NCBI GenBank assembly: GCA_020346225.1
Contig: CP070777.1
Span: 100,667 to 141,498 of the forward strand
Source: Candidatus Zixiibacteriota bacterium
Lineage (GTDB): Bacteria; Zixibacteria; MSB-5A5; GN15; FEB-12
DNA: 40,832 bases
Direction of reading: 5' to 3'
Below are positions 15,923-22,069 of the stretch, piece after piece. The position numbers and the translations under genes are program-made. The first letter of the stretch is position 1; each line of letters starts with the position of its first letter. A model generated the notes under the pieces. The model did not search any database. It saw only the letters and a list, made by a program, of their open reading frames with translations, and was not told the origin of the DNA.

Positions 15923-15952
15923 TTGACACAATTTGACCGGAACGCTTATCTT
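15923..15952 (+). promoter_or_regulatory. Promoter upstream of the flotillin operon
   Basis: A perfect TTGACA (15923-15928) is 18 bases from TATCTT (15947-15952), the same -10 variant as at 344-349. A start near 15959 gives a leader of about 65 bases. That leader contains a hairpin (AGAGGC 15982-15987, loop TGCC, GCCTCT 15992-15997) shortly before the ribosome-binding site. Confidence 0.5.
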
Positions 15953-16023
15953 CGTGGTTTACATAAATTTTGGACGATAAGAGAGGCTGCCGCCTCTATA
16001 TTTCTTTTAAGGAGAACGTGACC

Positions 16024-17424
16024 GTGAATTCCCTCATAATCATTGTCGGTGCCATAGTCGTGGTAGCGGCTATCGCCATTGTCATTCTGAAGAACTACCG
16101 CAAAGTAGGCCCCAACGAAGTACTGATCATCTCCGGCGGCAAGAAGCGCAGCGTGACGATGCCCGACGGGACCACCAAGCAGGTGGGTTATCGCATGCGC
16201 ATCGGCGGCGGTACCTTCGTGAAGCCGTTCATTGAACAGGCCCAGGTATTGCCGCTCGAGATCATTCCGATGAATATCCAGGTCGATGACGCCATATCGA
16301 CGAACGGCATCAGGTGTACGGTGCGGGGCACGGCGGAGGTAAAGATCGCCAGCGACGAGGCCTCGATTCACCTGGCCGCGGAGCAGTTTCTGGGCAAACC
16401 TCTGACGGATATTCGGGATGTGGCGCTTCGCTCGCTGGAGGGTTCGACGCGGGCCCTTATCGGCACGCAGAACCTCGAGTCGCTGAACAAGAACCGCAAG
16501 GAATTCACGGGTCGGGTGTTCGAAGATGTCACCGGCTACTTTGCCAATATGGGTTTGAAGCTGCTTTCCTACAACCTGAAGGAGATCACCGACCCGTCGG
16601 GGTACCTGGAAGCCCTGGGTAAACCGCGCATCGTGCAGGCCCGGCGCGACGCCGAGGTGGCCGAAGCCGAAGCAGCGCGTGACGCCATCATAAAGTCGGC
16701 GGAGGCGCAGAAAGAAGGGGACATTGCCAAGATTGTGGCCGAGACCGAGGTGGCCGAGGCCAACCAGGACTTCGAGTTGAAAAAAGCCGATCTGGCCAAG
16801 GACCTCAATCGCAAGAAGGCGGACGCCGACTTTTCGTACGAACTGGAGCGTCACAAGCTGAACCAGGAACTCAAGTCGGAAGAGGGTAAGGTAAAGTTGA
16901 TAGAGAAGGATTCGGCGGTACAGATCGAGAAGAAGGAAATCGAGCGGGTGGAGCAGGAGCTGGAGGCCAAAGTGCGCCGGCCGGCCCAGGCGGAACAGTT
17001 TCGTCTCGAGGCCGAGGCGAGGGGTATGGCCGAGGCGAAGCGTCTGCAGGGCCTGATAGAGGCCGAACTGGTCGAGAAGGTGGGGCAGGCGGAAGCCGAG
17101 GCGATGCGGCGCAAGGCGGAGTCATTCAGCGCGTACTCGCAGCCGGCGGTGCTTCAGATGGTTTTCGATAAGCTGCCCGATATCGCCCGCGAGATGGCCA
17201 CGCCGATATCGAAGGTTGACAAGATCGTGATGGTTTCGAGCGACGGCAAAGGGGGGGCGTCGAAGATCACCGGCGAAGTTGCCTCGATGATGGCGCAGCT
17301 GCCGGAGGTTATCAAGTCGCTTTCCGGGTTCGACCTGGAAGACTGGCTGAAGCAGTTGGTGGAAAAGGGCCGGGTCGAGAAGGCCGGCGAGAAGAACACA
17401 AAGGGCGGCTCGGACAAGGAATAG
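16024..17424 (+). CDS. Flotillin-like SPFH membrane scaffold protein
   Basis: This bacterial flotillin is probably anchored in the inner membrane and gathers proteins and lipids into microdomains. It has one N-terminal membrane helix (about 3-23), an SPFH/band-7 domain (about 25-190), then a long Glu/Ala/Lys-rich coiled coil (about 205-360) with the repeated EAEA pattern typical of flotillins, and a C-terminal region that helps oligomerise. I placed the start at the GTG 16024, nine bases after AAGGAG. A GTG at 16018, three bases after it, is equally in frame, and a TTG at 15970 has no ribosome-binding site. The aminotransferase gene follows after three bases, so the two are surely co-transcribed. 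Confidence 0.9.
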   Translation: MNSLIIIVGAIVVVAAIAIVILKNYRKVGPNEVLIISGGKKRSVTMPDGTTKQVGYRMRIGGGTFVKPFIEQAQVLPLEIIPMNIQVDDAISTNGIRCTVRGTAEVKIASDEASIHLAAEQFLGKPLTDIRDVALRSLEGSTRALIGTQNLESLNKNRKEFTGRVFEDVTGYFANMGLKLLSYNLKEITDPSGYLEALGKPRIVQARRDAEVAEAEAARDAIIKSAEAQKEGDIAKIVAETEVAEANQDFELKKADLAKDLNRKKADADFSYELERHKLNQELKSEEGKVKLIEKDSAVQIEKKEIERVEQELEAKVRRPAQAEQFRLEAEARGMAEAKRLQGLIEAELVEKVGQAEAEAMRRKAESFSAYSQPAVLQMVFDKLPDIAREMATPISKVDKIVMVSSDGKGGASKITGEVASMMAQLPEVIKSLSGFDLEDWLKQLVEKGRVEKAGEKNTKGGSDKE

Positions 17425-17427
17425 GCG

Positions 17428-19773
17428 ATGATTTCAAACCGGATCGGGCGTTTGGAGCTGTCCCCCACGCTGCGTATCACCGCCAAGGCCAAGGTGATGG
17501 CGGCGGAGGGGGTTGACGTTATCGATTTTTCAGTGGGCGAGCCGGATTTTCCCACTCCTGATCCCGTGAAGGATGCGGCCAAGGCGGCCCTGGACAGCAA
17601 TTTCACGGGGTATACCGCCAGCGACGGCATTCCGGAACTCAAGGCGGCCATTCGGGCACGGTTCAAGGAAGATCACGGCCTTGAATACCGGGCCGATGAG
17701 ATTATCGTTTCCTGCGGGGCCAAGCACTGTTTGTACAATCTGTTCGTTTCCATTCTCAACCGCGACGAGGAGGTTATCATCCCGGCGCCGTACTGGGTGT
17801 CCTACCCGCAGCAGGTGTTGATGGTCAAGGGCAAGCCGGTTATCGTGCCGACCCGCGAAGAGAACGGGTTTCGGCTGACGCCGGAGGAGCTGAAGGCCAA
17901 CCTAAATTTCAACAGCAAGGCGCTCATCATCAACAATCCTTCCAATCCGACCGGTGCGGCTTACACGCGGGAGCAGCTTCAGGAAATATGCGAGATTGCC
18001 GTGGCTGAGGGTCTTTTGGTTGTAGCCGACGAGATTTATGAGAAGGTGATCTACGATGATTTCCGCTTTCATTCCATCGCGACGCTGAGCGACAAGATCC
18101 GGGAGCGGTGCGTGATCATAAACGGCGTGTCGAAGTCATATTCCATGACGGGCTGGCGTATCGGGTACGCGGCGGGGCCACGCGAGATAATCGCGGCCAT
18201 GAATATCGTGCAGTCGCACACGACCTCGAACGCGACCTCGATCGCGCAGAAGGCGGCGGCCGAGGCGCTGAGCGGGCACCAGAGTGAAATCAGCCGGATG
18301 GTGGCGGAGTTCAAGACCCGGCGCAATTACATGCTGAGCAAGCTGAGGCGCATTCCGGAGGTGTCGTGCTACGAGCCCCAGGGAGCGTTTTACCTGTTTC
18401 CCAATACATCGGCGTACTACAACAGCGAGTACGGCGGGATGAAGATCCGCAACTCCTACGGTCTGGCGTACTACCTCCTGAAAGAGGCGGCCGTGGCCGT
18501 CGTTCCGGGCAGCGCTTTCGGCGCCGAGCAGAATATTCGTCTTTCCTACGCGACGTCGATGGAGAAGATCGAGGAAGGCACCGACCGCATCATCGAGGCC
18601 ATGGCCAGGCTCAAGGAATCGCCCAAGTACAAGCGGATAGCGCTGCAGAATTTCATGACGGAACCGCGCGGCATGACCGATGTCAAGACCGATGTGGCGG
18701 TCGAGGAGCGCGACGCGCTGGTGCAGGAGGCGGAAACGGCGTTGCCCTATGACCGGTATTTCGAGTGGAACGCCAACATCAACGGAATCATCATTCAGCT
18801 TCGGACCAACGTGCCGCACCTTTACGATTTCTGGGTGGAGAACTGGTACCCGGCACAGCTGGAATCGGACCTGGAACCGCACGGTATCATTTACGCCGTG
18901 GACGGCGTGGCCGGCCGCACGCCGTACGGGTACTACAGTCCAAACCAGAAGACAGCCGTTCTCTTCAATACCAGCTACTACGGCCAGGTGCGAAGCTGGG
19001 CGCTGGGCATGGTGGCCGAGGCCAGCGAGAGGCTGCTTGACGTTCACGGGGTGCGTGCCGCCTGTCTCGATTTCGGCGGCAGGGGCCTAGCCCTTATCGG
19101 GCCCAAGGGACTCAAGCGAGGCTCGACCTTTTTCAGGCTTCTGGAAGACGATAAAGCCAAGTTCGTCACGAACGACTGGGTTTTCGTGCGCTACCGGGGT
19201 TCGGAGGCGATTGCCGATGCGCCGGAGCGAAAGTTTTATATCAAGACGCGCATCGCCCGCGCTCTCCCCCGTTATGAACGCATTTTCGACCGCAGCAAGT
19301 GCGAGAATGTCGTTACGACGCGGGCGGACTGGACCAACTGGAAAGAGCTGGTCGACGAGTGTCCGCTGGACCTGGGCGAGCCTTACTGCTTCTGGGGCTC
19401 GGACGCCTCGCGGGCCATGGTCGACCCGGCCTGGATAGGCGGACAGCACAAGTACGTCAAGCGTTCGCGCCTGCGGACAGTCGTCTTCCTCACCTATGAG
19501 CCGAACGCACCGGCGGTGGAGAAGCTGTCGGAGGAAGCGGCCCTCGAGCACATCACCCAGGGCAGCTATCGCCTGCCGTCCGAGGCGGGCATGACACCAT
19601 TTAAGACGGAGCCGTTCTTCAACCCGTATATGCTGTCGTCGTCCGCCGACCAGGAGGATCTGCAGCGGCGCAATTTCCACCAGTTGTTCCGCGTCGCGGC
19701 CGCGTATAAAGTCAACATTGCCGACATTCCGCCGGAGGCGCTCCGGACACGAATCAGGGAACTGGCGATTTAG
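17428..19773 (+). CDS. Aspartate aminotransferase fused to a PEPCK-like domain
   Basis: The continuous 781-codon frame has two parts. Residues 1 to about 395 form a class I PLP aminotransferase: NNPSNPTG, the PLP-binding Lys236 in SKSYSMTGWRIGY, and QGAFYLFPN. This is the aspartate aminotransferase type, giving oxaloacetate from aspartate. Residues about 420-781 are not an aminotransferase. By eye they follow the ATP-PEPCK/HPr-kinase P-loop fold of the protein encoded at 20213, including a YYGQ segment before the nucleotide site and KFVTNDWVFVRYRG after it. However, the Walker A equivalent is GPKGLKRGST (558-567), lacking the GK-S/T core, and the catalytic KKG is replaced. The second domain is therefore probably regulatory or structural. 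There is no stop or ribosome-binding site at the junction, so the fusion looks real. AAGGA precedes the ATG by seven bases. Confidence 0.88.
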   Translation: MISNRIGRLELSPTLRITAKAKVMAAEGVDVIDFSVGEPDFPTPDPVKDAAKAALDSNFTGYTASDGIPELKAAIRARFKEDHGLEYRADEIIVSCGAKHCLYNLFVSILNRDEEVIIPAPYWVSYPQQVLMVKGKPVIVPTREENGFRLTPEELKANLNFNSKALIINNPSNPTGAAYTREQLQEICEIAVAEGLLVVADEIYEKVIYDDFRFHSIATLSDKIRERCVIINGVSKSYSMTGWRIGYAAGPREIIAAMNIVQSHTTSNATSIAQKAAAEALSGHQSEISRMVAEFKTRRNYMLSKLRRIPEVSCYEPQGAFYLFPNTSAYYNSEYGGMKIRNSYGLAYYLLKEAAVAVVPGSAFGAEQNIRLSYATSMEKIEEGTDRIIEAMARLKESPKYKRIALQNFMTEPRGMTDVKTDVAVEERDALVQEAETALPYDRYFEWNANINGIIIQLRTNVPHLYDFWVENWYPAQLESDLEPHGIIYAVDGVAGRTPYGYYSPNQKTAVLFNTSYYGQVRSWALGMVAEASERLLDVHGVRAACLDFGGRGLALIGPKGLKRGSTFFRLLEDDKAKFVTNDWVFVRYRGSEAIADAPERKFYIKTRIARALPRYERIFDRSKCENVVTTRADWTNWKELVDECPLDLGEPYCFWGSDASRAMVDPAWIGGQHKYVKRSRLRTVVFLTYEPNAPAVEKLSEEAALEHITQGSYRLPSEAGMTPFKTEPFFNPYMLSSSADQEDLQRRNFHQLFRVAAAYKVNIADIPPEALRTRIRELAI

Positions 19774-19782
19774 GAGTCAAGC

Positions 19783-20205
19783 ATGGCCAATACTCTCGGA
19801 ATAGTCAAACCCGACGGCGTTCGCCGCAAGCTGGTGGGCAATATTATCAGTCGGATCGAGAAAGCCGGGCTGATTATTCGCGGCTTGAAGGCCCTGAGGC
19901 TGAGCAAGGAGCAGGCGGCAAAGTTCTACGCCGTGCACGAGGGCAAGCCATTCTACCGGTCACTGATCGAGTTCATGACTTCGGGTCCGGTGGTGGTAAT
20001 GGTTATCGGCGGTCACGATTCGATAGACCGCTGGCGGGACCTGATGGGTCACACGGACCCGGCCAGAGCCCGCTACAACACTATCCGGCGTGAATTCGGC
20101 ACCTCCATCGAGAAGAACGTCGTGCACGGCTCCGACAGCGCAACCACGGCACGGTCCGAAGTGGCCTTCTTTTTCGGGGATGACGAGGTTTTGCCCAAGG
20201 AATAG
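19783..20205 (+). CDS. ndk: Nucleoside diphosphate kinase
   Basis: It transfers the gamma phosphate between nucleoside triphosphates and diphosphates through a phosphohistidine. The 140 residues match the usual length. TLGIVKPDGV opens the protein, and the active-site His115 lies in NVVHGSDS. The GGAG of the ribosome-binding site begins inside the stop codon of the aminotransferase gene and sits six bases before the ATG, so translation of the two is linked. Its place between an aminotransferase and a carboxykinase suggests it balances the nucleotides used by the latter, which is inference. Confidence 0.97.
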   Translation: MANTLGIVKPDGVRRKLVGNIISRIEKAGLIIRGLKALRLSKEQAAKFYAVHEGKPFYRSLIEFMTSGPVVVMVIGGHDSIDRWRDLMGHTDPARARYNTIRREFGTSIEKNVVHGSDSATTARSEVAFFFGDDEVLPKE

Positions 20206-20212
20206 AAGCGAG

Positions 20213-22069
20213 ATGTCCGACTCGATATACAAAACCGAGATTTACTCCCGTTTCTGGCGGGACCTACAGCGGCGCCTGAACGGACCCAACATCAAGGATG
20301 TCAACCTCGAAGATCTGCGCGAACCGGCTGTCTCGACCGGGACGCAGACCAAGTTCGGCAGCTGGGGCTGGCGCTCGGCGGTATCGAGTCGCATCGCCGA
20401 GAAGACGGTGACGCTCGGTTCGGAAGCGGTCCGCGAGTACCACATATCGGATACCAAGAAGAAAATAATCACCGACGCCCCGGACCAGCTCGACAAGGTG
20501 CTGCACCTGATGGAAACGTTGCCTTTCGTGAGGCTGCGGCGGCAGATGGGCGACAACCCGCACTACAATCCCAAGTGCAACCTGTACATGTCGACGGCGG
20601 ATATCAAGAACCACCGGCTGCCGTACATGTGGGGCAACACGTTGACGTCACCGACGAAAGCCCCCGGTCCGGAGTTCGTCCTGATCCACATACCGGAGGA
20701 GCATCATATCCGGCAACAGGCGCTGGTCCTTCCCGACTACAACCTGACACTGGTTCTGGGCAGCGACTACATGGGCGAGGACAAGAAAGGCTTTTTGAGG
20801 AACGGTATGTTCGGGGCCGATGCTCTGGGCATGCTGGGCCTTCATGCCGGCACCAAGGTGGTGATTATTCGCGACCGGAAAACGAACAAGCTCAAGAAAT
20901 ACGGTGTCTTTCTGTTCGGTCTTTCGGCCACCGGCAAAAGCACGTGGTCGTGCCACCAGCTGGGGCTGGACTGGTCCAAAGGCGAGCGCACGCTGGTGTG
21001 CCAGGACGACATCTGTTTTCTGAAGAACGACGGTTCGGCGCTGGGTTCAGAGGCCAACTTCTTCGTCAAGACCGACGTCGACAAGAGGCTTCAGGAGGCG
21101 ATGTACAACTCGCTGGTGCACAAGAGCGCCCTTTACGAGAACGTGATGATCAACGCCGACGGTCGCCCGGATTTCCTCGACGAAAATCTCTGCGGCAACG
21201 GCCGGGCCATCATCATGAAGAAGCAGCTCAAGATAAAGCGCGGACGGGGGCCGTTCTCGATGAAGAACATCTGGTACCCGTCCTATGACCTGCCCCCGGT
21301 GGACGAACTGGACGGGCTGGTTTTTGCCTTTATCACCCGCCGCAACACGATCATGTCATTCGCCCAGCGGCTGACCCCGATGCAGGCGGTGCTGGCCTAC
21401 CTGTGGGGCGAATCCAGCCACAGCTATGCGTCCAACCCGGCCAAGGCCGGAGAATCCGTGCGCATAGTCGGGACCGACCCTTTCATCATCGGGTCCCGGG
21501 CCAAAAAGGTCAATCAGTTCTATGAAATCATCATGGACCTATACAACAACTACCCGGACAAGGTTTCTTTCTACCAGTACAACACGGGCGGCATGGGTGA
21601 AATTATCGAAACGGACGAAAGAGGCGCCAAGAAGGTTATCCGCAAAACCGAGCGGGTGCCCATCGATATCATGGCGGCCATCCAGCGGGGCGATTTGCGG
21701 GGGACGAACCGGTATGACACCAGCCTGCTCGGCACGGATGTGATCGTGTCGGCCGAAGGGGCCGATCTCAGCCCTTACGCCCCCGAGCGATATTACTCCA
21801 AGGGCCAGATCGATATGTATCTTCGCGACCTAGTGAATGGCCGGCGCAAGTTCACGGAGGGTGTGGCGGAAGAGGGCGGCCTGTCCCCGGAGGTACTTCG
21901 GGCGGCCGAGGAATCCTACACTATCGCTCCCGAAAAAGAAACCAAAGTCTATATGTCTTCCAAAAAGAAGGAGACGCCGCCCCCGCCGAAAGACAGACCG
22001 GCGGCAAAGCTGACCGACTGGAAGCCCAACCCGCGCCTGGTGCGCGACCGGGGCTGGCGCTACGGATGA
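20213..22069 (+). CDS. pckA: Phosphoenolpyruvate carboxykinase, ATP-type, divergent
   Basis: It likely converts oxaloacetate and NTP to PEP, carbon dioxide and NDP. The 618 residues align by eye with [19 protein letters not shown] matches the substrate-binding GEMKKG region, [11 protein letters not shown] (P-loop 236-244) matches the family's [17 protein letters not shown] keeps the metal-binding Asp pair, [13 protein letters not shown] follows, and [16 protein letters not shown] matches the RLT block. It is longer than E. coli PckA (540), with an N-terminal region and a Pro/Lys-rich tail of its own. An annotation beginning at 20090 would run into ndk. The ATG at 20213 is seven bases after the ndk stop, with only a weak purine stretch upstream. 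Nucleotide preference was not determined. Confidence 0.88.

Follow-up and report, generated by a model that had tools for sequence, protein, structure and literature searches.

The window analysed here is a stretch of 40,832 nucleotides from a Candidatus Zixiibacteriota bacterium, and every gene and every part of the fusion that we describe in it lies on the forward strand. Positions 17428-19773 form one open frame of 781 codons, encoding 781 residues, in which an aspartate aminotransferase is fused to a domain with the fold of ATP-PEPCK. The frame starts 3 bases past the stop of an SPFH/flotillin-like membrane scaffold gene (15970-17424; Pfam Band_7, E 9e-19, and Flot, E 2e-8), the first gene of a conserved unit, whose translation has a hydrophobic N-terminal stretch. 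Upstream of that gene, at 15923-15952, is a sigma-70-like promoter match (10/12), which rests on the consensus only. The fusion is followed by a nucleoside diphosphate kinase gene (19783-20205; PF00334, E 1e-52) and then by a gene for a divergent PEPCK (20213-22069; PF01293, E 5e-23), whose closest NCBIfam model is PRK09344.1-3, at a score under the cut-off. The kinase gene occupies the same place, between fusion and PEPCK, in the Zixibacteria relatives, and it defines the operon type of that group: it is 5' of the PEPCK in Zixibacteria, and 3' of it in an Ignavibacteriales locus (L032). Possibly, the kinase connects the pools of ATP and GTP on which PEPCK draws.

The first half of the frame (residues 1-395, positions 17428-18612) meets both criteria for a class I aspartate aminotransferase, that is, a match to PF00155 (Aminotran_1_2, spanning residues 30-388, E 7e-77) and a PLP lysine, Lys236. 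Its nearest solved structures are aspartate aminotransferases (1j32, E 5e-103; 6f77, E 3e-102). Ser235-Lys236, Lys99 and Arg371 are invariant across 40 aligned fusions; in this subgroup of aminotransferases, the residues at the positions of Lys99 and Arg371 bind the two carboxylates of the substrate. The resemblance to the bacterial enzymes of Thermus/cyanobacterial type (1j32, 6f77, 1bkg), of which the Thermus enzyme belongs to subgroup Ib (PMC4927141), extends over the whole N-terminal half of the fusion, whereas the C-terminal PEPCK-like domain is absent from all of the solved relatives listed. We conclude that an entire aspartate aminotransferase is present in residues 1-395. The family is established; aspartate as the substrate, rather than prephenate or others, is inferred, and bifunctional aspartate/prephenate aminotransferases, such as 5wmh, are among the near relatives.

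A linker of approximately residues 396-417 (positions 18613-18678) joins the two halves; in a model of the full-length protein, its pLDDT falls below 50 at residues 400-411, and the pTM of that model is 0.52, so that the relative placement of the halves is unreliable. The second half (residues 418-781, positions 18679-19770) has, taken alone, no Pfam match (none to PF01293 up to E 1) and no NCBIfam match. An AlphaFold2 model of this half, built from a family alignment of 64 sequences, has a mean pLDDT of 91.3 and a pTM of 0.88. Foldseek places the model on ATP-PEPCK with a best E of 7.5e-17, and VIA-align matches ATP-PEPCK over the entire length of the domain (Z 27.9, rmsd 2.9, 326 residues, 15% identity), with GTP-PEPCK next in the structural ranking (Z 22). 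Thus, residues 418-781 have the ATP-PEPCK fold, as seen in a predicted structure.

Residues of this domain are compared below with those of E. coli PEPCK, whose numbering was transferred through a profile alignment of standalone relatives of the domain to canonical Zixibacteria PEPCKs, and by aligning the E. coli chain with the neighbouring PEPCK in HMMER. The profile alignment covers 304 columns (E 1.8e-9) and matches Tyr207, Lys212, His232, the P-loop, the Asp-Asp pair and Arg333; the fused and standalone domains align with one another at E 8e-106. Where ATP-PEPCK reads GEMKKG, the fusion reads GQVRSW. Arg522 (positions 18991-18993) stands at the position of Lys212, a serine at that of Lys213, and Arg543 (19054-19056) at that of the metal ligand His232. 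In E. coli PEPCK, His232 and Lys213 are Mn ligands. The P-loop has degenerated to GPKGLKRGST (residues 558-567, positions 19099-19128) and fails the GxxGxGK[S/T] criterion, having Arg564 for the Walker lysine (Lys254) and Gly565 for the following Ser/Thr (Thr255). Asn582-Asp583 (19171-19176) replaces the Asp268-Asp269 pair, so that of the metal-binding and catalytic set only Asp269 is kept. PDB titles among the structural matches name PEPCK mutants at several of these positions (Lys213Ser, Asp269Asn, Lys254Ser, Tyr207Phe). A further stretch, WNANINGIIIQLRTNVPHLYDFWVENW (residues 447-473, positions 18766-18846), is a signature of the family; it runs between the invariant alignment columns W30 and W56 and is kept in intact standalone and fused members alike.

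The domain therefore shares with ATP-PEPCK (PF01293; E. coli Pck, Thermus 2pc9/1j3b) its whole-domain fold, the order of its motifs and the position of Tyr207, but it is only about 15% identical, lacks the N-terminal part and, in the window, has replaced Lys212, Lys213, His232, the P-loop Lys/Thr and Asp268. The other family to be considered is HPr kinase/phosphorylase (1knx, 1ko7, 1jb1), which has been placed in one group with PEPCK (PMC1079889). Here the likeness is a weak profile match at the P-loop region (E 0.004-0.008), with no HPr kinase signature beyond it. The Pfam model Hpr_kinase_C does not match the window domain, and relatives of the domain reach only 13-20 bits against a cut-off of 33.3.

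A first-pass annotation, made from the sequence alone, had described a 781-codon frame with a complete PLP aminotransferase, some 360 residues with the ATP-PEPCK fold, a P-loop without the GK-S/T core, and RSW in place of the catalytic KKG. All four claims held, and both motifs are exact; the P-loop claim is true of the window's clade and not of all fusions.

The same annotation had proposed two outcomes that would refute it, namely a match to an unrelated fold, and relatives encoding the two parts as separate genes, in which case a sequencing error would have removed a stop. Neither occurred. Our scan of genome contigs found 74 loci, of which 55 are fused in one frame, 18 are standalone and 1 is cut at a contig edge. 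The fused copies belong to Zixibacteria, Calditrichota, Bacteroidota/Ignavibacteria and Aminicenantes, and the standalone ones to Deltaproteobacteria, Nitrospirae, Acetothermia and Planctomycetota; the window's own phylum adds two further standalone copies (genomes G048 and G049). All fused copies fall in a single clade with support 1.0, and no relative in that clade has two genes. Other Zixibacteria have the same frame, some 780 codons long, at 75-87% identity, and other lineages have it at roughly 44-68%; between the two halves, pairwise identities show a correlation of 0.93, as expected if the halves travelled together. The fusion is old and present in at least four phyla. Within the window genome itself we found no close unfused copy of either half, its other aminotransferases being at most 38% identical.

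Two loci are filed under other groups, L054 (as a Thermoplasmatota archaeon) and L044 (as a Clostridiales bacterium). Both group with Aminicenantes by sequence, and their bins are likely contaminated or misnamed.

These results bear on the simplest rival explanation, that the frame is an artefact, either of a sequencing or assembly error that joined two genes or of a decaying PEPCK-like remnant. We found no support for it beyond occasional frameshifts, one of which splits the fusion (L082:6276-8716) and another the PEPCK (L021); both are probably assembly errors in metagenome-assembled genomes (MAGs). Against it, the same frame recurs in dozens of independent MAGs from several phyla, and both halves are under strong purifying selection, with dN/dS-like ratios of about 0.06 and 0.08, synonymous sites being near saturation. 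We regard an artefact as all but excluded.

Conservation within the fused clade is uneven. Across the 69 fused copies scored, Tyr207 is kept in every one, and both Lys212 and His232 have become arginine in every one; in the 20 standalone copies, neither exchange occurs, and the two positions are Lys and His throughout. Conversely, the positions of the P-loop, Asp268 and Arg333 drift among fused copies. A fixed arginine pair beside a retained Tyr207, amid such drift, indicates selection on the pair and not plain decay. The domain meets the criterion for a pseudoenzyme, which requires a PEPCK fold, purifying selection and the loss of catalytic residues relative to an intact related family, and we accordingly call it a pseudo-PEPCK. 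The fold and the residue losses are shown, and the absence of catalytic activity is inferred from them.

The P-loop itself has eroded to different degrees. Some fusions have it fully intact (APKGTGKS, GQPGTGKT, APPGTGKS); in Calditrichota, Bacteroidota and most Aminicenantes the Walker lysine and Ser/Thr are kept and the preceding glycine is lost (GTKKT, GTRKT); in the window's clade, where decay has gone furthest, the lysine and Ser/Thr are lost as well. The notion that the P-loop is lost in all fusions is therefore rejected, since the Walker lysine is gone in only part of the clade. From intact standalone proteins, to fusions with an intact P-loop, to fusions with an eroded one, the series shows a pseudoenzyme in the making, marked by a sharp two-residue signature.

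This gradient leaves room for a second rival, in which the fused domain has some other enzymatic activity, such as HPr-kinase-like phosphotransfer or nucleotide hydrolysis, at least in the lineages whose P-loop is intact. In its favour, some fusions retain GTGKS and the Asp-Asp pair, and the weak Hpr_kinase_C similarity appears in standalone members and in fusions with an intact P-loop. However, the window's clade has Arg for the Walker lysine and Gly for the Ser/Thr, and Lys212 and His232 are absent from all fused copies. We therefore consider this explanation unlikely.

One further element varies among relatives. Most fused copies outside the window's clade carry an insert loop with four cysteines, C-x4-C-x6-C-x9-C (for example L046, L027, L040 and L031), with a Cys-to-His exchange in Bacteroidota; the pattern is partly present in the standalone copies L077 and L079. 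In the window's clade half of it is lost, and the corresponding loop (residues 629-657, positions 19312-19398) has only Cys645 and Cys654. The sequence pattern, whether four Cys or Cys-His-Cys-Cys, suggests that the insert is likely a zinc site.

The standalone relatives keep Tyr207, Lys212, His232, the P-loop and Asp268-Asp269 in 20 of 20 copies, but they have serine for Lys213, also in 20 of 20, which suggests that they are probably not ordinary PEPCKs either. The intact members (L066:7935-9017, L060, L067, L073 and others) are about 360 residues long, with the motifs APTGTGKST, SDDW, HSIHG[SA]C and HLYDFWVENW; the copies in G048 and G049 (L143:5645-7387 and L144:5423-7222) represent a longer variant of some 580-600 residues, in which an insertion of some 65 residues follows the Asp-Asp pair. 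For most of the intact standalone relatives tested, the best curated match is NCBIfam PRK09344.1-3 (NF006821; E 3e-13 to 5e-11), as it is for the PEPCK at 20213; all of these matches lie far under the cut-off of 369 bits, and the fused window domain does not match the model at all. The intact standalone proteins form an apparently undescribed PEPCK/HprK-like family of Deltaproteobacteria and Nitrospirae, and it is likely that the fused domain, which is related to a standalone PEPCK-fold nucleotide-binding protein, descends from it. The neighbourhoods of the standalone copies offer no clue to function, and no neighbour is constant across phyla: purine genes and an S49 peptidase are found in Deltaproteobacteria, an ABC transporter in Nitrospirae and DnaJ-TPR in Planctomycetota.

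We turn to the PEPCK of the operon. The protein at 20213-22069 keeps the equivalents of Tyr207, Lys212, Lys213, His232, Lys254, Thr255/Ser, the Asp-Asp pair and Arg333, that is, its catalytic residues are intact insofar as they can be aligned (the Arg65 region cannot). Members of this divergent group are about 60% identical between phyla and about 38-41% identical to a neighbouring PRK09344.1-3 member. The gene follows the fusion in Zixibacteria, Calditrichota, Bacteroidota/Ignavibacteria and part of Aminicenantes.

Among 132 genomes of the window's phylum, the pseudo-PEPCK-type domain occurs in 42 (40 as the fusion and two as standalone copies) and the divergent PEPCK in 37, always accompanied by the fusion (37/37). 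Among 142 Aminicenantia genomes, the domain is found at high score in 77 and the divergent PEPCK in 28, the PEPCK again never without the domain (28/28). Fisher tests of co-occurrence give p 1e-29 for the phylum and 3e-9 for Aminicenantia, uncorrected for kinship. In about 10 genomes of the phylum the two genes lie far apart or on different contigs, and thus linkage alone does not explain the rule. Six Aminicenantia genomes carry an approximately 40%-identical PEPCK of the neighbouring subfamily without any fusion, and so the rule is confined to the divergent subfamily.

The converse dependence does not hold. Aminicenantia with the fusion and without the divergent PEPCK have a GTP-PEPCK in 22 of the 25 genomes tested and an ATP-PEPCK in none, as against a GTP-PEPCK in 1 of 10 genomes with the divergent PEPCK (p 3e-5). 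The two enzymes are therefore nearly exclusive, one replacing the other in fusion-bearing Aminicenantia, and the idea that the fusion works only with the divergent PEPCK is rejected. Across 41 relatives, no other PEPCK was found in 5 of 10 genomes with the cassette, whereas no PEPCK was found in 2 of 31 without it (p 0.006), some of the genomes being incomplete; in three genomes of one genus (G001-G003) the divergent PEPCK is the only PEPCK found. Taken together, the co-occurrence, the replacement of GTP-PEPCK and the genomes without another PEPCK make it very likely that many of these cells use the divergent PEPCK as their working PEPCK; it is likely an uncharacterised subfamily of working enzymes, its activity being inferred in either case. 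From the same co-occurrence and displacement we infer that the place of the fusion is at the oxaloacetate-PEP node, regardless of which PEPCK the cell has.

An in-frame TGA flagged in distant Aminicenantia relatives of this PEPCK had suggested selenocysteine. The candidate was rejected when tblastn showed no TGA inside the gene; for three of those loci, moreover, Rfam reported no family at all, not even SECIS.

The most constant neighbour of the fusion is the SPFH/flotillin-like gene, which lies directly 5' of it in all 45 fused loci with room for it, even where no PEPCK is adjacent. Pairwise identities of SPFH protein, fusion and PEPCK covary with r 0.97, mostly through shared ancestry. That the SPFH protein acts as a membrane scaffold for the fusion, at the membrane and in physical contact with it, is an inference. 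The constancy of this neighbour supports a third rival, an SPFH-centred membrane role, in which a flotillin-like assembly has the fusion as its client or its anchor, and the link of the fusion to PEPCK is secondary, a matter of shared operon history. However, the divergent PEPCK needs the fusion even when encoded elsewhere in the genome, and both halves of the fused enzyme are metabolic. As the primary explanation, this one seems to us unlikely.

The reading that we favour, to which we would give no better than equal chances of being right or wrong, is that of a pseudo-carboxykinase whose metal site has become a two-arginine anion site, and which, at the oxaloacetate-PEP node and on a membrane scaffold, tunes or docks an aspartate aminotransferase. 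The fusion looks bifunctional, but would have one catalytic activity, aspartate + 2-oxoglutarate to oxaloacetate + glutamate, by which its aminotransferase half would make or consume oxaloacetate. Of the former active site, the pseudo-PEPCK half would retain the oxaloacetate/PEP side and have abandoned the ATP side, the two arginines and Tyr207 forming a putative site that binds oxaloacetate, PEP or an anion like them without a metal. Occupancy of that site may set how active the aminotransferase is, or how it docks to PEPCK; the domain would keep the aminotransferase near the cell's PEPCK, and the SPFH protein would hold the set at the membrane. Such an arrangement is predicted to gate the oxaloacetate-PEP node, where nitrogen flow through aspartate and glutamate meets gluconeogenesis. 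The fold, the losses of catalytic residues, the fixed arginines, the fusion, the operon, the co-occurrence and the displacement of PEPCK are shown. The ligand, the allostery, the contacts with PEPCK and SPFH protein and the membrane location are inferred, there being no ligand, activity or interaction data. It also counts against this reading that the full-length model leaves the relative placement of the halves unreliable, and that the arginine pair could be structural instead.

A possible alternative is that of a pure scaffold, in which the pseudo-PEPCK is a docking module for the true PEPCK and the SPFH protein, oxaloacetate is handed over directly, and binding in the cleft is unimportant. 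The absence of any divergent PEPCK without the fusion in two phyla, the shared operon and, for what shared ancestry leaves of it, the covariation of identities speak for it. On the other hand, no fused copy departs from Tyr207, Arg212 and Arg232 in the cleft, a constancy of which a passive surface has no need, and most Aminicenantia fusions occur without the divergent PEPCK, usually with a GTP-PEPCK of another family. In one genome that is 96% complete (G117), the fusion is present with no match to ATP- or GTP-PEPCK. Since the fusion persists with a different PEPCK, and there without a PEPCK match, contact with one particular PEPCK is not its whole function, a limit that weighs on the favoured reading as well.

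The first-pass annotation had offered the domain as a partner of the intact PEPCK, a proposal that co-occurrence strongly supports, physical contact remaining inferred, and as a regulator or oxaloacetate channel, which remains inference. It had missed the SPFH partner, the intact standalone relatives and the invariant Lys-to-Arg and His-to-Arg swap. It had also stated that it knew of no described enzyme of this form; in the open-access literature that we searched, with most subscription journals and preprints outside its scope, nothing relevant was found on an aminotransferase-PEPCK fusion, a pseudo-PEPCK or a link between PEPCK and flotillin. Pseudoenzymes are well known among kinases. A pseudoenzyme domain on a metabolic enzyme is likewise of a known kind, and it is the pairing of a pseudo-PEPCK with an aminotransferase that we did not find described in that literature.

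A bolder version, which we suspect is rather more apt to fail than to hold, would see here a widespread module: a metal-free two-arginine sensor of oxaloacetate/PEP on an oxaloacetate-making enzyme, with a flotillin-like tether, needed by the divergent PEPCK subfamily. If the proposed mechanism is true, amino-acid and sugar metabolism would meet at a gate that a pseudoenzyme controls and a membrane scaffold carries. The results suggest what two central-metabolic proteins may do in phyla from which hardly any member has been cultured, and the notion that a bacterial flotillin-like protein organises metabolism becomes testable here.

Finally, a canonical ATP-PEPCK is encoded in the window genome as well. 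Another class I aminotransferase adjoins it on the opposite strand (contig C1, 1481665-1484517; locus L103), making a second aminotransferase/PEPCK neighbourhood in the same genome.
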